Shown piece after piece: positions 55,353 through 64,000 of a stretch of DNA of 64,000 nt. Where the stretch lies: positions 6,244,501-6,308,500 of the forward strand of contig NZ_AP021861.1 in assembly GCF_009177095.1 (NCBI RefSeq), read 5' to 3'. The notes under the pieces are model-generated. The model was not told where the DNA came from and made no database searches. It saw nothing but the letters and a program-made list of their open reading frames with translations. The position numbers and the translations under genes are program-made. The DNA comes from Lacipirellula parvula (GTDB lineage: Bacteria; Planctomycetota; Planctomycetia; Pirellulales; Lacipirellulaceae). The first letter of the stretch is position 1. The number at the start of each line of letters is the position of its first letter.

Positions 55353-56675
55353 ATGGCGGCTCGAACGATTTGCCAAGTGATTGGATGCTGGGCATGCTCA
55401 GCGGCCATCATGCTGGCAGGCAATCCAGAACTAGCCAAGCCCGTCTTGCTAAACGCAGACGGCAAGGCAATCGACACCGGCAAGGCGTGGGGGCATAGCA
55501 GCCCATGCATCGTCGATCTTGATGGCGATGGCCGCCAGGATCTACTGCTTGGGGATTTCAGCGGCAAGTTCCACGTCTACAAAAACGCTGGCGGCGACGG
55601 CATCCCCCAGCTCAAGAGCGATGGCGCCCTCCAAGCTGGGAACGTTGACGCCGAAGTAAGAATTTACTGTTGCATTGGCGCCCAAGCGCGAATGGCCGAT
55701 CTCGATGGCGACGGCATTCAGGATCTCGTCAGCAACTCCTACGACCCCGGCCACTGCTATCTCTTTCGCGGCCTGCCGGATCATCAGTTCGCCGCTCGCG
55801 AAGAGTTGCTCGACAAGACCGGAACGCCAGTGCGAAGCAGCCCGCAGCAGCAACAAGACTTCCAGTCATTCGGCAGCTTTTACACGCCTGTCGATTGGGA
55901 CGCGGACGGCGATTTCGACCTGCTCATCGGCTGCTTCGACGGCGGGCTGAAGGTCCGGATCAATGAAGGCGATGCGAAGCAATACGCCTTCGCGGCGGAG
56001 AACATTCCTCTCAAGGCAGATGGCAAGCCGCTGAAAGTCAAAGCCCACTTCTGTCCAGCCGTGGCCGATTGGGACGGCGACGGTCTGTTCGACGTGATCG
56101 CCGGATCGGACGACGGCAGCGTCACTTGGTTCCGCAACGTCGGCAAAGCGGGGGCTCCCAATTTCGCCGGCGGCGTCGAGCTCGTCGCCAAACACGACGG
56201 CAACGGCTACAACCTGCTCCGCTGGAGCGACGACGACATTGGCCCAGGGATTCGCAGCCAACCCGAAATCGCCGACGTCAACGGCGACGGCAAGCTCGAT
56301 CTCATCGTGGGAGACTTCGCGACCGTTTACGCGATCAAGCCCGACGTCACGCCCGAAGAGCGCGCCGAATTCGAGTCGATTCTTGCGGAGGCCCAGAAAA
56401 CGGGCAAGCCGGTGGCCGAAAAGTACGAGGCCCTGCACAAGGACTTCGCCGCACGCTACCCGGGCGACGCCATCTACAGCGACGAAGCGACTGCAGCCTG
56501 GACCAAAGAGTATCAGGCGATGCGCGAGAGTCCTGAGTCGAAGGCAGCCGAGGCCAACGCCGCGGAGTTCGTCAAGAAGGTGAAGCCCTTCCTCGCCAAA
56601 ACGCACGGCGCTGGCAACGAGTCGCACGAGTTGGCGATCCCGCATGGATACGTCTGGCTGTATCTCCGCAAGTGA
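55353..56675 (+). CDS. FG-GAP/VCBS-repeat protein
   Basis: 440 residues; AAGGAGGG lies 8 nt before ATG 55353, the best ribosome-binding site seen in this window. Seen: a short hydrophobic N-terminus (CWACSAAIMLAG), at least five calcium-binding FG-GAP-type units (VDLDGDGRQDLLLGDF, ADLDGDGIQDLVSNSYD, VDWDADGDFDLLIGCF, ADWDGDGLFDVIAGSDDG, DVNGDGKLDLIVGDF), then a ~110-residue helical C-terminal region (EERAEFESILAEAQKTGKPV) not part of the propeller. Known: such proteins fold as beta propellers outside the cytoplasm. Inference: an exported calcium-binding protein. The next gene follows within 20 bp. Confidence 0.85.
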   Translation: MAARTICQVIGCWACSAAIMLAGNPELAKPVLLNADGKAIDTGKAWGHSSPCIVDLDGDGRQDLLLGDFSGKFHVYKNAGGDGIPQLKSDGALQAGNVDAEVRIYCCIGAQARMADLDGDGIQDLVSNSYDPGHCYLFRGLPDHQFAAREELLDKTGTPVRSSPQQQQDFQSFGSFYTPVDWDADGDFDLLIGCFDGGLKVRINEGDAKQYAFAAENIPLKADGKPLKVKAHFCPAVADWDGDGLFDVIAGSDDGSVTWFRNVGKAGAPNFAGGVELVAKHDGNGYNLLRWSDDDIGPGIRSQPEIADVNGDGKLDLIVGDFATVYAIKPDVTPEERAEFESILAEAQKTGKPVAEKYEALHKDFAARYPGDAIYSDEATAAWTKEYQAMRESPESKAAEANAAEFVKKVKPFLAKTHGAGNESHELAIPHGYVWLYLRK

Positions 56676-56694
56676 ACCTACGCTGGAGTTCTCA

Positions 56695-57294
56695 ATGAGC
56701 CGCCTGCGAACGCTGCTGCGACTCACGTTAATTGCGACCCCGCTTGCGCTATTCGTATGCGCCATTGGCTGCGGGCCGCCATCCGCGCCGACCAGTTCTA
56801 CTGCAACCGACGCCGCCCTGGTGCAACCCGCGGCAGACGTCGCAACAGCGGCGACAGCCTCGGACGCGATCGTCGTGCGCGTCGAGCAGACGCCCATCGC
56901 CGCCGCACTCGTGCTGCCGCAGCGTTCCGCGCTCCCCGGAGCGCAGTTCGAGCTCGCCGTGGAACTAGAAATAGCGCCGCAGTGGGAAGTGCGGGCGCTC
57001 GGCGCCAACTCTGCCGCGGGCATCGCTACCACGCTCCAACTGACTCTTCCGCCAGGAGTTTCCGCGGTGGGCGAATGGGTCGCGCCGTCGCCCACGCGGT
57101 CCATCGCACCTGACGGCCATCCGGTGCACGTCGGCAAATCAACGTTCAAACGAACGCTCAAAATCGAGCCAACGGCGCACGTCGGCGAAACGGCGATCAA
57201 CTGCAAGATCGACTACCAAGCCTGCAACGAACGCTCGTGCATGAGGCCGGAAGCGATCGAACTTGCGGCGCCCTTCGCCATCGCCGCCCCGTAG
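56695..57294 (+). CDS. Lipoprotein with DsbD alpha-like domain
   Basis: 199 residues from ATG 56695. Seen: a lipoprotein signal (ATPLALFVCAIGC, lipobox AIGC), a Ser/Thr/Ala-rich linker, and a beta-sandwich ending in INCKIDYQACNERSCMRPEA. Known: the YQxC...CxxP ending is that of the N-terminal reductase domain (DsbD alpha / DsbD_2), which binds DsbD partners. No DsbD membrane part follows. Inference: a stand-alone periplasmic thiol-redox or binding domain. It starts 19 bp after the FG-GAP gene, so the two are probably one transcript. Confidence 0.75.
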   Translation: MSRLRTLLRLTLIATPLALFVCAIGCGPPSAPTSSTATDAALVQPAADVATAATASDAIVVRVEQTPIAAALVLPQRSALPGAQFELAVELEIAPQWEVRALGANSAAGIATTLQLTLPPGVSAVGEWVAPSPTRSIAPDGHPVHVGKSTFKRTLKIEPTAHVGETAINCKIDYQACNERSCMRPEAIELAAPFAIAAP

Positions 57295-57566: not shown

Positions 57567-60500
57567 ATGGCATCTTCGCATCGCAATCGGCGCCCCTCGT
57601 CGCCCAATTCCATTTCCCGCCAAAAGTCAGCGCCGCGCAAGTTGCGCTACGAGCCGCTGGAAGATCGCCGCGTGTTGGCGGTCGTCATCAACGAGCTGCA
57701 CTACAACCCTGAAGACAACACGAGCCAGGAAGAGTTCATCGAACTCTACAATACCGGCGCGACGGCGGTTGATCTTTCGAACTGGGCCTTCACCGACGGC
57801 ATCGAGTATACCTTCGCACCTGGTCAGCAAATCGCGGCGGGCGGTTACCTCGTCATCGCTCAGAGTCCCGCGACGATCTTGGCGGAGTTCGGCGTCAATT
57901 CCATCGGCCCTTACACCGGCGGGTTGAGCAGCGACGGCGAACTCGTCGAACTCCGCAACGCTCAAGGCCAGATCATCGACCAAGTCGACTACAAGGTTAG
58001 CTTTCCGTGGCCAATCGCCGCGGACGGCAACGGCGCCTCGATGGAACTGATCAATCCGGCGCTCGACAACAATCTCGGCAGCTCGTGGCGCCCATCGTAC
58101 GTCACGCCCATGTTCCCCGCTCCCAGCGATCCGCCGCCGCCCGCCGGCACGGGGTTGCTCAGCAACATCGTCCACCGCTGGAGCTTCAACGGCAATCTGA
58201 ACGACAGCGTCGGCGGCTCGAACGCCACGCTCGTCGATCCAGGCCACATCGCCAGCTACAGCGGCGGCCGGCTCAATGTCAGTGCAAACTCTGGCCAGAG
58301 CTCGGACCAAACGCCGTTCGCGTCGGGCGCGTACGTCGACTTGCCCAACGGCATCATCTCCAGCCTCAGCGGCAACGCCACCTTTGAATGGTGGGGCACG
58401 GTCTCTACGAATCGTACCTGGGCTGAGATCTTCTCGTTCGGCCGCAGCAGCGGCGGCGAAGATCGCTCGACTGGCGCTCTCAACCAGGAATACGTCACGC
58501 TCATTCCCCAAGCCTCCTCGGGAACGTTGCGACTCACTCACCGCAACGGCGGCACGCAAACCGAAAGCTCCGTCGATTGGACGAGCGCTCCGACGCCCGG
58601 CGTGGAATACCAGTTCGTCAGCACTTGGGACACCGTCAACGACGTCCAGAAGCTCTACGTCAACGGCGTCCTTGTCGGCACAAGCCAGCTGCTCATCGAC
58701 CTGATCGACATCGAAGACGTGAACAACTGGCTGGGCCGTTCGCAGTGGGGCGATCCGTTGTTCGACGGCTTCCACAACGAATTCCGCATCTACGACAAAG
58801 CCCTCACCGCGGCGGACGTTTCCACGAGCTACGCCGCCGGCCCCGACGCCGTCGCCCCTGGCCCGACGATTAGCGCGTTCAACGCGAGCGCCGCCGAAAT
58901 CCTCGTCGGCCAGCCAGTGACGCTCTCCTGGAACGTCGCCGGCGCCACGTCGATCTCGATCAACCAAGGCGTCGGCACGGTCACGGGGCAGAACCAAATC
59001 GTTCTGAACCCGACGCAAACCACTACCTACACCCTCTCCGCCACGAACGCCCAGGGAACGAACACCCGCACGGTGAAGGTGGTCGTCGAGCACCCCCGCG
59101 CGACTCCCGGCGCACAGAACAACGTCTTCGCCACGAACGCCGCGCCGGCGATTCGGCAGGTCAACCATACGGAAAATCCCGTCTCCGGCACTTCCGTCAC
59201 CGTCTCCGCCAAGGTGACCGATCCCGAAGGCGTCGCGTCGGTCGTCTTGCAGTATCAGGTCGTGCTTCCCGGCCAGTACCTTCCCGCGCGGCTTCCGGTG
59301 CCGGTCGATCAGCTGATCGCCGACGAAACGCTGCAACCGACGGCCAACCCCGCCTACTTCGCCGCCGCCAGTTGGACGAACGTTTCGATGCTCGACAACG
59401 GCGCCGGCGTCGACGCGGCGGCCGGAGACTCGATTTTCTCCGTCGCGCTGCCGCCGCAGTCGCATCGCACGCTGGTGCGTTATCGCATCGTCGTCACCGA
59501 CGCGCTCGGCAAGTCGGCGACCGTCCCCTACGAGGACGATGCTTCGCTGAATTTCGCGTACTTCGTCTACGACGGCGTCCCTGAATACAAGAACAACGCG
59601 AACCAGGTCGTCGCCGACGCCGCCGCGCTCGCTTCGCTCCCGGTCTACCAATTCCTGACCCGGGCCGAAGACATGACGGCCGTCAACGGCTACGAACCGA
59701 GCCAGGAAATCCCGCAAGGGACCGAAGCCCGCAGCGCGTACAACTGGTCGGGCACGATGGTTTACAACGGCGTCGTGTACGACAACATCACCTACCGCCT
59801 CCGCGGCGCCAACGGCCGTTACCTCACCGACGGCAAGCGGAGCATGCGGTTCCGCTTTAACGACGGCAGCTGGTTCGAGCCGCTCGACAACAACGGCGTG
59901 CCTTACCCTGAAAAGTGGAAGACGCTCACCACCGGCAAAGGCTTCGACAATCGTCAAACGCTCACCTACTCGCTCAACGAAGCGATGACGATGATGCTGT
60001 CGAACCTCATGGGCCTGCCAGCGGCGGAAACCCACTGGTTCCAGTTCCGCGTCATCGACGGCGCCGCCGAAGCCCCCGACCAATGGCGCGGCGACTTCTG
60101 GGGCATCAACTTCGCGATGGAGGACTACGACAAGCGGTTCCTCGACGCCCACGACATGGAAGCGGGCAACCTCTACAAGCTCATCAACCAATCGAACGAC
60201 GCGCTGCGGCAGCAAGACTACCAGGCGCCGTTCGCGGTGAGCGACGGCTCCGACCACGACTACATGGAAGAGATTTTCGGCCGCGCGAGCACGGATATCG
60301 AGTTCCGCGTCAATCTGCAGAAGTACTTCATCTTCCGCGCCTTGGCGGAAGCGGTGCGCCATTACGACTACTGGCCTACCGGCAACAAGAACATGGTCTA
60401 CTACTTCGAGCCCGACTACCTGCCGCAGAACGATAACTTCGGCAAGCTGTGGATCATGCTGTGGGACACCGACGCCACGTGGGGCCCTACTTGGAACGAC

Positions 60501-62363
60501 GGCAAAGATCTCGTCCAAGACGCCCTGTTCGAAAACCAGAACGTCGCTTACCGCAACTCGCTGATCAATCCGGCGTACTACAACACGCTCCGCGAATTGC
60601 GCGATCTCATCTGGCAGCCTGACCAAATCAAAGGCATGCTCGACGAGCTCGTGTCGAAGATCCTGCCGCTCGAAGCGGCCGACCGCGCGCGTTGGCAAGG
60701 CGCACCGGCCGACGCCGGCAACTACAACGGCCTCGGCGGCGCCGGCGCGACTTCGCTCACTGCCCTCGTGCAAGACATGATGAACTTTGCGTTCGTCGGC
60801 GGCAGCTGGCCCGGCGGCGACGTCGGCCCCGGCGGTCGAGCGTCGTATCTCGACGGCCTGCTGAATGCGTCAGGCGAAGAATCGCAAATCCCCAACACGC
60901 CGACGATTACCTACGTCGGCGCTCCCGGCAAACCGGCCGACGGCCTCGCGTTCCAAACGACGGCGTTCGCCGATCCGCAGGGCAATGCCACCTTCGGCGC
61001 CGTGCAGTGGCGTCTCGCGAAGGTCACCGACGTCGCCGCCGGGCTAGACGTGAACAGGACGTTCCTCGACGAATTCACCGCCAGCTGGGATTCGGGCGCG
61101 CTCACCGTCAACAGCAACGTCATCAACGCCCCCGCCTCGGCTGTGACGCCGGGCGGCACCTACCGCGCGCGGGTTCGCTACCAAGACGCCACAGGCCGCT
61201 GGAGCCACTGGTCGGCACCACTGGAATTTGTCGCCGGCGCCAACGCATCGACGCCGTCGCTCGTCATCAGCGAACTTCACTACAACCCCGCGTCGAATCC
61301 CGCCGTCGCCGATTCGCAGGATCTCGAGTTCATCGAAGTCCTGAACACCGGCACGCAAACCCTCAATCTCGAGGGCGTGCAACTCGCCACGTTCGCTTCG
61401 ACGCCGTACACCTTCGGCGCTGGCCTCACCCTGGCCGCCGGCCAGCGGATCGTCGTGCCGAAGAACCCGACCGCCTTCCAGTCGGTCTACGGCTCGGGCG
61501 TCTACATAGCAGGAGGCGGCTACGGCACCGCGAACCTCAGCAACGGCGGCGAAGTGATCACGCTCGTCGCAGCCAACGGCACCGTGCTGCAGACGATCGA
61601 GTACGACGACGCAGCCCCTTGGCCCACCGCCCCTGACGGCGGCGGCCCCTCGCTTGAGTTCTTCAACCTCGCGGGCGATCCGAACTCGGGCGCCAACTGG
61701 CGGGCCAGTTCGATGACCGGCGGCTCGCCCGGTTGGGACGGCACCCCTGGCCTCGCCGGCGATTACAACCGCGACAACCGCGTCGACGGCGTCGACTTCC
61801 TCACCTGGCAGCGGACCTATGGCAACCGCACGCCGGCGCTGGTCGGCGCCGACGGCAGCGGCAACTTACTGGTTGACGCTCCCGATCTCACGATTTGGAA
61901 AACCAACTTCGGCCAGTCGCAGACGATCGCTGCCGCCGCATCGTCGGGTGCAACAGTAGCCGCCGCGGTAATGGCGCCGGCTTCATTGAGCGCTATGCTC
62001 GTCGAAGAATCGACGCCCATGTTCACGCCCTCCACGAGCGCCGATTTCGCCATGCCCGCCGGGCTTCCCTTTCTGGCAGCCGGCGATGCGTCGCAACGGC
62101 GCTTCGACGCCGCCTTCTCGGCGTTCGGAGACGATGACCTGCAACCGATCCGGCGCCGTGAATCGGCGAATGGCTGGTTGCAAGCTGAACGCAACGGTCG
62201 CACTGAGAGCAATTCGGTCGCGTGGGCCAACCCCAAGCACCGTGCACGGCGCGGCGAGTTGCACGAGTTCTCCGCAGAGGAAACTGAACTCGCGCGGCGC
62301 GACGCCGCCATCGGCGTCCTCGAAGATCGTCACTGCACGGTTTCTGACGACGAGTTGCTATAG
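57567..62363 (+). CDS. Giant exported LTD/LamG/CotH/dockerin protein
   Basis: 1598 residues. Order: basic N-terminus with the planctomycete export motif YEPLEDRRVLA (~28-38); lamin-tail domain (VVINELHYNPEDNTSQEEF, ~40-150); LamG fold (~200-430); Ig-like insert (~435-520); further repeats; a CotH kinase-like region (YRLRGANGRYLTDGKRSMRF ~741, WGINFAMEDYDKRFLDAHDM); a second lamin-tail domain (SLVISELHYNP, ~1231); a dockerin-like pair (GDYNRDNRVDGVDFLTWQRT, DAPDLTIWKTNFG, ~1395-1450); a charged C-terminal tail. No PEP-CTERM sorting signal. Known: this architecture is common in planctomycetes. Inference: a secreted or surface-associated protein, possibly a protein kinase-like enzyme acting outside the cell. 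Its 1048-residue antisense ORF is a shadow. Confidence 0.88.
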   Translation: MASSHRNRRPSSPNSISRQKSAPRKLRYEPLEDRRVLAVVINELHYNPEDNTSQEEFIELYNTGATAVDLSNWAFTDGIEYTFAPGQQIAAGGYLVIAQSPATILAEFGVNSIGPYTGGLSSDGELVELRNAQGQIIDQVDYKVSFPWPIAADGNGASMELINPALDNNLGSSWRPSYVTPMFPAPSDPPPPAGTGLLSNIVHRWSFNGNLNDSVGGSNATLVDPGHIASYSGGRLNVSANSGQSSDQTPFASGAYVDLPNGIISSLSGNATFEWWGTVSTNRTWAEIFSFGRSSGGEDRSTGALNQEYVTLIPQASSGTLRLTHRNGGTQTESSVDWTSAPTPGVEYQFVSTWDTVNDVQKLYVNGVLVGTSQLLIDLIDIEDVNNWLGRSQWGDPLFDGFHNEFRIYDKALTAADVSTSYAAGPDAVAPGPTISAFNASAAEILVGQPVTLSWNVAGATSISINQGVGTVTGQNQIVLNPTQTTTYTLSATNAQGTNTRTVKVVVEHPRATPGAQNNVFATNAAPAIRQVNHTENPVSGTSVTVSAKVTDPEGVASVVLQYQVVLPGQYLPARLPVPVDQLIADETLQPTANPAYFAAASWTNVSMLDNGAGVDAAAGDSIFSVALPPQSHRTLVRYRIVVTDALGKSATVPYEDDASLNFAYFVYDGVPEYKNNANQVVADAAALASLPVYQFLTRAEDMTAVNGYEPSQEIPQGTEARSAYNWSGTMVYNGVVYDNITYRLRGANGRYLTDGKRSMRFRFNDGSWFEPLDNNGVPYPEKWKTLTTGKGFDNRQTLTYSLNEAMTMMLSNLMGLPAAETHWFQFRVIDGAAEAPDQWRGDFWGINFAMEDYDKRFLDAHDMEAGNLYKLINQSNDALRQQDYQAPFAVSDGSDHDYMEEIFGRASTDIEFRVNLQKYFIFRALAEAVRHYDYWPTGNKNMVYYFEPDYLPQNDNFGKLWIMLWDTDATWGPTWNDGKDLVQDALFENQNVAYRNSLINPAYYNTLRELRDLIWQPDQIKGMLDELVSKILPLEAADRARWQGAPADAGNYNGLGGAGATSLTALVQDMMNFAFVGGSWPGGDVGPGGRASYLDGLLNASGEESQIPNTPTITYVGAPGKPADGLAFQTTAFADPQGNATFGAVQWRLAKVTDVAAGLDVNRTFLDEFTASWDSGALTVNSNVINAPASAVTPGGTYRARVRYQDATGRWSHWSAPLEFVAGANASTPSLVISELHYNPASNPAVADSQDLEFIEVLNTGTQTLNLEGVQLATFASTPYTFGAGLTLAAGQRIVVPKNPTAFQSVYGSGVYIAGGGYGTANLSNGGEVITLVAANGTVLQTIEYDDAAPWPTAPDGGGPSLEFFNLAGDPNSGANWRASSMTGGSPGWDGTPGLAGDYNRDNRVDGVDFLTWQRTYGNRTPALVGADGSGNLLVDAPDLTIWKTNFGQSQTIAAAASSGATVAAAVMAPASLSAMLVEESTPMFTPSTSADFAMPAGLPFLAAGDASQRRFDAAFSAFGDDDLQPIRRRESANGWLQAERNGRTESNSVAWANPKHRARRGELHEFSAEETELARRDAAIGVLEDRHCTVSDDELL

Positions 62364-62690: not shown

Positions 62691-63173
62691 ATGTTCCACC
62701 GCTCCCCATTATTGACGCGAATGATCGCCGCCCTCGGGCTGGCGTTGCTGTCAATTAACGGGGCGCAACAATGCCGCGCACTTTGCTTGCTAGCAGATTG
62801 CCACGCGGCCGAAACCTGTCCGCATGACGAAGCAGCCCAGCCGCGTTCATGTGGAACGTGCTGCAAACCAGCCAAGCCAACCGCCGCGAGCCCGCAGCAC
62901 CGCCACTCTGGCGACGAACTGTGCGATGATTCGCACAGCTCGGACCACTGCCCCAGCGAACAACCTTGCGCCTGCTGCGCCTCGCCGGTGCCGACGCAAA
63001 CATCCTCGGTCGTCGACTCGCAAGAAGTGCTCGATGCGATGCCGCTCGATGGCAATCTGACGGCCGTCGTCCAATATTTGAACCGCCATTCCGAACGCGT
63101 TTCGGACGCGCACAACAGCGATCTTCCGCGAACCGTTTCGGTATGCGCGGAGTTGTGCCGCTTCATCATTTGA
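62691..63173 (+). CDS. Secreted Cys/His-rich protein, probable metal binding
   Basis: 160 residues from ATG 62691; an upstream in-frame TTG at 62664 adds nine residues of no clear value. Seen: a signal peptide (MIAALGLALLSINGAQQ), then a dense run of Cys and His between residues ~30 and 105 (CRALCLLADCHAAETCPHDE, SCGTCCKPAKP, HRHSGDELCDDSHSSDHC, PCACCASPVP). The remainder is ordinary. Known: such composition is typical of periplasmic metal chelators, but I do not recognise a family. The next gene encodes an HMA-like protein. Inference: a copper or other soft-metal buffer outside the cytoplasm. Confidence 0.6.
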   Translation: MFHRSPLLTRMIAALGLALLSINGAQQCRALCLLADCHAAETCPHDEAAQPRSCGTCCKPAKPTAASPQHRHSGDELCDDSHSSDHCPSEQPCACCASPVPTQTSSVVDSQEVLDAMPLDGNLTAVVQYLNRHSERVSDAHNSDLPRTVSVCAELCRFII

Positions 63174-63320
63174 GCATCACTCGCTTCGATCTTTGCCCGC
63201 TGGGCATGTAGCTGACTCACGCTGAGCAGCCGTTACTGCACGAATTGTCGCGAGGCGCCCGCCTGCGCTGCGACGAACGGATTCGTCGCCCCCGCCTCGA
63301 TTTTATCTAGGGAGTAGTCC

Positions 63321-64000
63321 GTGAAACTGCATCGAATGGCCCGTTGGGCCAGGTCGCTCGCCCTGCTGGCCGCCGTCGTGGCGCCAGTTGCACTCAACGC
63401 CTCCAGCGCCGTCGCGGCCGACGTCGTCACCTACGAGATCACGGCGGACGACATGTGCTGCCAAGGGTGCGCCAAGAAAATTGCCGCCCAGCTCTACACG
63501 GCGCCAGGCGTGATGAACGTCTCGGCGAACGTTGAAAAGCGGCTCGTCACCGTCACGGCGAAGCCCTCGCCGAAGCTCACCGCCGACCGGCTCTGGAACG
63601 CCGTCGAAAAGGGAAAGGGCAAGCCGTCGCGGCTCGTCGCGAGCGACGCGGCGATCTCGCTGGTTCGTCCCGATCAGCTCGATGCGGCCAGCCGCGCTAC
63701 TGACGGCCGTTATGTGATTGCCGTAACGCCCGCCGCCGACGCGAACGCCATCGCTCAGTTGAGTAGCGCCGTGCAGTCGATGAAGGGCGTTCAAACGGTC
63801 ACGCTGCTGCAGGACAAATCGCAACTGATCGTCGAGCCGGCGAAGAACGTGCAACTTTCGCCGTGGCCGATGCTGTCATCCGCTCGGCAGTTGGGCCTCA
63901 CGCCTTCCTCGGTCACCGGTCCATTTGGCCGGCTCACCTTGGAAACGACTCAAGCCGCTCCGCAAGTCAGCGCACGTCCTCAATCCGCCGGAGGGACTCG
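63321..64000 (+). CDS. HMA-like metal-binding protein with CCQGC site, 3' end outside window
   Basis: Open from GTG 63321 (AGGGAG about 7-12 nt upstream) to the end, at least 226 residues. Seen: a signal peptide or anchor (LALLAAVVAPVALNASSAVAA), then an HMA-like ferredoxin fold (VVTYEITADDMCCQGCAKKI, GVMNVSANVEKRLVTVTAKP, residues ~38-90). A second similar beta-alpha-beta repeat follows (GRYVIAVTPAADANAIAQLS, MKGVQTVTLL). The metal site reads MCCQGC rather than the usual MxCxxC. Inference: an exported heavy-metal (probably copper) binding protein or part of a larger one cut by the window edge. Confidence 0.7.
   Translation, partial: MKLHRMARWARSLALLAAVVAPVALNASSAVAADVVTYEITADDMCCQGCAKKIAAQLYTAPGVMNVSANVEKRLVTVTAKPSPKLTADRLWNAVEKGKGKPSRLVASDAAISLVRPDQLDAASRATDGRYVIAVTPAADANAIAQLSSAVQSMKGVQTVTLLQDKSQLIVEPAKNVQLSPWPMLSSARQLGLTPSSVTGPFGRLTLETTQAAPQVSARPQSAGGT

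Follow-up and report, generated by a model that had tools for sequence, protein, structure and literature searches.

The right edge of the window, a stretch of 64,000 nucleotides (bases 6244501–6308500 of the single-contig, 6.92-Mb genome of Lacipirellula parvula), falls inside a gene cluster that probably encodes a new form of split MacB-type exporter linked to metal handling. The genes are arranged in the order CysHis, HMA, LipoC, permease A, fusion protein, ATPase, permease B, and TolC-type channel. The first two, which encode a Cys/His-rich protein and an HMA-domain protein, probably head a metal-efflux operon, in which periplasmic buffers and chaperones would feed an ABC tripartite pump. 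The original prediction regarded these two genes as a metal-handling pair; both are real and conserved, but they are only the beginning of a cluster of eight. It had also proposed that the sequence to the right of the window should be obtained, and that the metal link should be abandoned if the genes there were unrelated to metals. That sequence encodes an ABC tripartite efflux cluster, which did not refute the link. Coordinates beyond the window are given for the genome stretch L005 (bases 6307001–6323000), in which the addition of 62500 yields the window coordinate. The features are as follows:

62691–63173, plus strand: CysHis gene, ATG at 62691, TGA at 63171–63173, 160 residues; each of the 22 family loci has an orthologue in this position
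62772–62996, plus strand: densest Cys/His segment of CysHis, residues 28–102, with 18 Cys and His
63144–63170, plus strand: conserved C-terminus of CysHis (C152, C156-R-F), at the extreme end of the protein
63174–63320, plus strand: intergenic gap between CysHis and HMA, 147 nt
63321–64004 (63321–64000 in the window; L005:821–1504), plus strand: HMA gene, GTG start, 227 residues
63441–63620, plus strand: HMA domain 1, residues 41–100, PF00403 at 49.7 bits
63453–63470, plus strand: MCCQGC, putative metal site, residues 45–50; MCCxGC in orthologues
63711–63920, plus strand: degenerate HMA-like domain 2, approximately residues 131–200, without Cys in the window species
L005:1501–2034 (64001–64534 by extension): LipoC, predicted OB-fold lipoprotein, 177 residues; its ATG overlaps the HMA stop by 4 nt
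L005:2061–3218: permease A, MacB_PCD/FtsX
L005:3279–4880: fusion protein, HlyD/RND_mfp
L005:4911–5618: ATPase, ABC_tran, nearest LolD
L005:5631–6773: permease B, MacB_PCD/FtsX
L005:6876–8312: TolC-type channel, OEP

The TGA stop codon of the HMA gene (64002–64004) lies just beyond the window edge. The gap between CysHis and HMA has no Rfam match, and none over the gathering score was found across L005:1–9000. Promoter-like and terminator-like sites in L005:1–8500 did not exceed the level of shuffled sequence, and a search for a common operator upstream of CysHis found no shared palindrome, every 8-mer being confined to at most 5 of the 22 upstream regions. Upstream of the cluster, a surface-protein-like ORF of 1598 residues (57567–62363) carries LEDRRVL, a motif typical of planctomycete secreted proteins, near its N-terminus and DYNRDNRVDGVDFLTWQ near its C-terminus, and looks unrelated to the operon. 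An ORF of 216 residues at 56644–57294 contains, near its C-terminus, CKIDYQACNERSCMRPE, which is reminiscent of the N-terminal domain of DsbD.

At E up to 1e-12, a match to the HMA protein is present in 21 of the order's 296 genomes, and 16 of these 21 are from its own family. Its distribution is patchy within the genus, where three of six genomes, its own included, hold an orthologue of at least 50% identity, and a single locus, in a congener, was retrieved when genome contigs were scanned for the protein. Loci were taken from 23 of the 25 HMA matches (G044 and G079 were left out), six CysHis matches, and 14 LipoC matches. The cluster was found in 22 loci from 18 genomes of the family; because the loci were picked by HMA or CysHis matches, fractions of these 22 describe the chosen loci. 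CysHis, LipoC, and permease A are encoded in all 22, and a two-domain HMA protein in 20. Some loci end at contig edges (for example, L045 and L051), so the later genes are not visible in all of them, and TolC was undetected in some family loci (for example, L047, L049, and L120). Identity to the window copies is approximately 70–88% for the permeases, 54–64% for LipoC, 25–47% for HMA, and 23–29% for CysHis. Judged by these comparisons, the pump is conserved, and the sequences of the small metal proteins change rapidly at positions other than Cys.

The HMA protein has a Sec-type signal peptide, recognized by eye, followed by two HMA-like halves. Domain 1 is the single stretch that matches PF00403 (49.7 bits against a cut-off of 24.8). 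Of the two HMA-like repeats predicted originally, the first is thus confirmed by Pfam; the second has neither a Pfam match nor a Cys in the window copy, but forms a ferredoxin-like domain in the predicted model, and relatives carry LHCxxC there. The model, based on an alignment of 19 sequences (mean pLDDT 81.9), contains the beta-alpha-beta-beta-alpha-beta arrangement twice. Domain 1 of the model superposes on HMA7 (3dxs; Z 8.1, rmsd 1.8, 74 aligned residues), CopZ (Z 7.9, rmsd 1.3, 69 residues), and MerP (1osd; Z 7.8, rmsd 1.5, 71 residues). Structural matches differing by no more than 1 Z were regarded as tied, and the superposition therefore identifies the fold, not the metal.

The sequence MCCQGC had been described as replacing the MxCxxC motif. 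However, it fits the motif, with C at the first x and Q and G at the other two, so a broken MxCxxC is ruled out, and the peculiarity of the site is an additional Cys. In the window protein, MxCxxC is present in domain 1 and absent from domain 2. MCCxGC occurs in domain 1 of all 20 two-domain orthologues read, and MHCxxC in all five single-domain relatives read (L039, L053, L057, L060, and L061). The LHCxxC of domain 2 is retained in 14 of the 20 two-domain orthologues and is missing from the window species, congeners L036 and L037, L044, L045, and L049. Within this clade the extra Cys is thus fixed, and the second site is the dispensable part of the protein.

Among 32 HMA loci, comprising 29 high scorers from part of the matches of a class-level PF00403 search and three other loci from the window genome, the first x of MxCxxC was readable in 31: it is H in 19, T in eight, R in two, S in two, and C in none. 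In a sample of 294 phylum genomes, in which the window genome is the sole member of its family, five were matched by a DNA pattern encoding MCCxG-C and then GC, a pattern that misses MCCxGCV (L044 and L045); only the matches in the window and in G584 fall in an HMA reading frame. Together, the tally and the scan indicate that the extra-Cys motif is rare, yet not unique to this protein family. The match in G584, a distant planctomycete, belongs to a stand-alone HMA protein with GMCCGGC (L141). The plant Zn/Cd ATPases HMA2 and HMA4 have a CC-containing variant, GICCTSE, which may be taken as a hint but not as evidence. Covariation of the extra Cys with the fourth Cys of LipoC was considered and set aside, since the LipoC residue is retained in L119 and L121, where no HMA gene was detected. 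The extra Cys may, as the original prediction suggested, change metal preference; if the operon functions in the proposed way, mutation of this residue would be a clean test of the idea.

CysHis contains 14 Cys and 9 His. It begins with a hydrophobic segment, is rich in Cys and His through its middle, ends in AELCRFII, and is predicted to be a secreted or membrane-anchored protein. The two adjacent exported proteins of the original prediction hold up. The dense cluster expected to hold about twenty Cys plus His within 75 residues is present, but its count is slightly lower, 18. This is the highest value among the 276 stop-to-stop frames of at least 100 residues in the window (runner-up, 15) and never arose when the bases of the gene were shuffled 2000 times (maximum, 15). 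Eight Cys (C32, C37, C54, C58, C93, C95, C152, and C156), together with R157 and F158, are invariant in 12 aligned orthologues; among ten further orthologues, the proteins from L054 and L047, inspected by eye without alignment, each miss one of these Cys. CRF is located close to the C-terminal end in 21 of the 22 family loci.

Neither CysHis nor LipoC from the window has a Pfam or NCBIfam match at E up to 0.1, and the same libraries gave no convincing model match for the 12 CysHis orthologues at E up to 1. The HYC_CC_PP/CzcI-type family is absent from the matches of these orthologues, in libraries that may lack such a model. In L122 and L123, a CysHis-like gene, the product of which ends similarly to the CysHis C-terminus (LCRFLM and LCRLLT, respectively), precedes a TolC-like gene near RND genes and without ABC genes. 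A weak CysHis match in L124 (4237–5432, E 1.5e-5) is followed by an ORF of 136 residues with 28 Cys, in surroundings where no efflux gene was recognized.

LipoC was predicted by AlphaFold to be an OB-fold lipoprotein (mean pLDDT 81). The block means of pLDDT are 81–97 for residues 41–100 and 93–97 for residues 121–177, and the Cys loop between them (residues 101–120) is modelled with low confidence (58 and 69). The best VIA-align matches (Z of about 10, rmsd 2.3–3.2 over 90–96 residues) are OB-fold domains, among them Stn1-Ten1, MCM, and Obody. In 21 diverse members C111 is invariant, and C115 and C116 are nearly so. The Cys cluster of the 22 family loci reads C-x-x-D-C-C. Most of the 14 loci read from outside the family show C-x-x-P-W-D-Y-C-C, which is not a strict pattern, and the cluster differs again in L039, L060, and L061. 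No LipoC member scanned matches a Pfam or NCBIfam model over the cut-off, and the weak matches are to DUF2946 in 2 of 24 members (best E 0.0032) and to a general OB-fold model in four (best E 0.083).

A profile built from 24 LipoC proteins has matches in 105 of 392 phylum genomes, and a tblastn search of 72,556 plasmid records with the window LipoC gave no match (E up to 1e-3). In all 14 non-family loci (12 genomes), which were chosen among the better profile matches, LipoC is encoded beside permease A, permease B, the fusion protein, and the ATPase, in varying order; an HMA match was found in 4 of the 14 stretches and none in the other 10. In L039, from the window genome, and in L060 and L061, LipoC is paired with a single-domain HMA protein, with no ABC genes in the surrounding stretch. 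Since LipoC pairs with ABC genes and also with HMA, it connects the HMA protein with the pump. The pair in L039 (3568–5259) is the second one in the window genome, has no ABC genes within 10 kb, and includes a LipoC copy with a long D/H repeat (DHDHDGDGKADHA).

The identification of LipoC with DUF3299, of which Pseudomonas PA4066 is a member, looked attractive because seven planctomycete DUF3299 proteins show a CC motif in what seems to be the same loop. These proteins (L190:1498–2178, L191, L193, L194, L195, L196, and L198) share an invariant D..(x)CCFGG.P motif. However, PF11736 (DUF3299) matched none of 24 + 6 LipoC proteins and nothing in the window genome. Comparison of the profiles by hhalign gave P of 0.026–0.11 for LipoC against DUF3299 and 0.0038–0.033 against the control CysHis and HMA profiles; the controls thus scored equally or better, and the identification is unsupported. 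The absence of PA4066 (PDB: 4hsp) from the best 50 structural matches of the LipoC model is uninformative.

The pump genes were assigned by their domains. Permease A scores 54.2 bits with MacB_PCD and 40.2 with FtsX, and permease B 69.5 and 53.2, respectively (Pfam cut-offs 27 and 25.5). The adaptor passes RND_mfp (131.7 against 94.9) and the channel passes OEP (139.1 against 22); the TolC-specific model stays below its cut-off for the channel (78.8 against 225.15). The ATPase is nearest to LolD, also under the cut-off (220.5 against 307.75). ATPase and permease genes are separate, and the single-chain MacB model (PRK10535) yields 20.1, 16.8, and 191 bits against a cut-off of 966. By domain content, the downstream genes encode a split MacAB-TolC-like pump. 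MacAB-TolC and other MacB-type pumps collect their cargo in the periplasm and deliver it to TolC.

Metal handling by the cluster is well supported by gene context, and relatives strengthen the link: in 2 of the 22 loci the cluster holds a P1B ATPase gene, and in nine it continues into a CusA/CzcA-like pump. The two loci with the ATPase, L119 and L121, have no detected HMA gene, and the ATPase gene is located between those of permease B and TolC:

L119:10279–12555: P1B ATPase gene, operon variant
L121:10524–12731: P1B ATPase gene, operon variant

After the general heavy-metal model, the two ATPases are best matched by Zn/Cd-type models. The Cd-type model TIGR01512 scores 536.8 and 535.7 bits (cut-off 313.5), and the Cu-type model 400.2 and 394.3 bits (cut-off 397). 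Their membrane motifs, CPC, N...K, and DxG, are those characteristic of P1B-2 Zn/Cd/Pb pumps. The comparison with copper operons made in the original prediction gains no support here, as the sole partner with an assigned metal class points to Zn/Cd/Pb, though the Cu-ATPase model comes near its own cut-off.

In the nine loci adjoining RND genes (L037, L042, L043, L046, L048, L052, L056, L058, and L059), a small Cys/His-rich ORF comes after the TolC gene; its product is mostly 29–36% identical to that of L042, and genes of an adaptor and a CusA/CzcA-like RND protein come next. The RND proteins are 75–83% identical, over the available part, to that of L122, which passes the CusA/CzcA model (818.5 against 701.45). 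The model was run on L037 only among the nine, where a fragment of 289 residues scores 257.8 bits against a cut-off intended for the whole protein; the others were classed by their identity to L122. The adaptors of the RND blocks of L042 and L122 match the CzcB and RND_mfp models only below the cut-off. The genes beyond TolC in the window genome are on the opposite strand and encode an RND pump, which is under the metal-RND cut-off (313.4 against 701.45), and its adaptor; no metal-specific transporter gene was found after the operon. The most probable metal is a thiol-seeking ion from the Zn/Cd/Pb class; Cu(I) is possible but not favoured.

We propose that CysHis would buffer the metal in the periplasm and that the HMA protein would take up an ion at its MCCxGC site and hand it to the Cys cluster of LipoC, from which the split MacB-type ABC pump would expel it through the fusion protein and the TolC channel. 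We infer metal binding, the order of hand-over, the direction of transport, and the identity of the metal from gene order, conservation, domain identity, predicted folds, and the metal-transporter neighbours in relatives. The relay from chaperone through LipoC to the pump is suggested by co-conservation, by the 4-nt overlap of HMA and LipoC, which recurs in 17 of the 19 two-domain pairs with computed starts, and by common Cys chemistry. Since MacB-type pumps have known cargo of other kinds, and 10 of the 14 loci from outside the family gave no HMA match, the ABC-LipoC core may export something else, and may be tied to metals only in some lineages. A planctomycete-wide, ATP-driven tripartite exporter of periplasmic soft metal ions, in which MCCxGC HMA chaperones load a new family of Cys-cluster OB-fold lipoproteins and these in turn a split MacB-type pump, is a tentative and rather doubtful extension. 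Export of soft metals from the periplasm has otherwise been described for proton-driven RND pumps of the Cus/Czc type. The well-known pumps that move metals from the periplasm to the outside are RND systems, and ABC tripartite pumps are known to serve drugs, peptides, and siderophores. Should the operon function in the proposed way, metal efflux in planctomycetes would be driven by ATP, with the pump loaded by chaperones, and the LipoC family would gain a testable role.

It is unlikely that the ABC pump instead exports a metal complex or metallophore, with the HMA and Cys proteins sensing or stripping the metal. This reading draws on Pseudomonas PA4063–PA4066, which has a similar list of parts, combining a split MacB with a metal protein of ferredoxin-like fold and a protein with an OB fold, and for which export of pyochelin-cobalt is proposed (PMC8561739, PMC11481552). 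However, the neighbours of the planctomycete cluster in relatives resemble ion pumps, and no synthesis genes were recognized by eye in the ORF lists, a weak argument. Trafficking of Cu or Ag by a chaperone cascade, moving Cu(I) outward or to periplasmic cuproenzymes, would suit the PDB matches of the HMA profile, 36 sequences that are mostly copper proteins (the rest include ZntA, a cadmium ATPase, and MerP), and the superposition of domain 1 on CopZ, Atx1, and HMA7, and also on MerP. Nevertheless, the preference of the P1B partner in L119 and L121 for Zn/Cd-type models, after the general heavy-metal one, and its membrane motifs, typical of P1B-2 pumps, make a copper or silver route quite improbable, though cuproenzyme genes may lie nearby.

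The resemblance of the ATPase and permeases to the LolD, LolCE, DevC, and MacB models could also be taken to mean that the cluster is an exporter of lipids, lipoproteins, drugs, or peptides of the LolCDE/MacAB type, to which the metal proteins are mere neighbours, as would fit the ABC-LipoC cores of the 10 non-family loci without an HMA match. We regard this as very unlikely, given the conserved gene order with the 4-nt overlap of HMA and LipoC, the presence of a Cys cluster across the LipoC members, and the recurrent metal-pump neighbours. The preferred reading is that of a metal-efflux operon.

Like MerP, CopZ, and other HMA chaperones, domain 1 of the HMA protein is an HMA domain with MxCxxC. 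Unlike them, the protein has an extra Cys (MCCxGC) and a degenerate second domain, and is exported and linked to an ABC pump; the equivalog models for MerP and CopZ score far under their cut-offs (TIGR02052, 21.1 against 92.55; NF033795, 22.9 against 91). CzcI and HYC_CC_PP are small Cys/His-rich proteins that head metal-efflux operons. CysHis resembles them as a small exported Cys/His-rich product encoded ahead of efflux genes and differs in that its 12 orthologues have no convincing NCBIfam or Pfam model. The cluster shares with the type VII ABC systems MacAB-TolC and LolCDE the MacB_PCD/FtsX permeases, the LolD/MacB-like ATPase, the adaptor, and the TolC-type channel. In contrast to these systems, it has two distinct permease genes and a separate ATPase gene together with the adaptor and TolC, and adds the HMA, lipoprotein, and Cys/His proteins; its proteins score below the MacB, LolCE, LolD, and DevC cut-offs.

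Judged by titles and abstract openings, none of the papers listed, outside subscription journals, describes this operon. ZepA, from a paper that, in its accessible part, mentions Lacipirellula, is a different zinc protein (PMC10957091). The closest published analogues are Pseudomonas PA4063–PA4066 and Vibrio ZrgABCDE. As described in the accessible parts of the sources, PA4063–PA4066 of Pseudomonas aeruginosa is a Zur-regulated split MacB operon, in which PA4063 is ferredoxin-like and binds Zn via His-rich regions, PA4064 and PA4065 are MacB-like and proposed to export pyochelin-cobalt, and PA4066 is similar to the OB fold (PMC8561739, PMC11481552). The planctomycete cluster likewise has a separate ATPase, a MacB-type permease, a ferredoxin-like protein, and an OB-fold protein. 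The Pseudomonas operon differs in having four genes and one permease, with no fusion protein or TolC gene named and PA4063 not described as an HMA protein in those parts. LipoC differs from PA4066 by its lack of a Pfam DUF3299 match and a profile comparison that is not significant.

ZrgABCDE is described, in the part of the source available, as a zinc acquisition system composed of an ABC permease, an ATPase, a DUF2796 protein predicted to bind zinc, the DUF3299 counterpart of PA4066, and a small DUF2607 protein (PMC9817125). The planctomycete cluster is similar in that an ABC permease and ATPase are encoded with a predicted metal-binding protein and further small proteins, and differs in its adaptor, outer-membrane channel, and HMA domain, none of which is named in that part for ZrgABCDE. 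DUF2796/ZrgA has no match among the eight cluster proteins, and the HMA protein matched HMA only. By analogy, the planctomycete operon may work like PA4063–PA4066 and ZrgABCDE; on the sequence features compared, it is not a member of either: it has an HMA protein, a pair of permeases, a fusion protein and a TolC of its own, and a DUF3299-negative lipoprotein.
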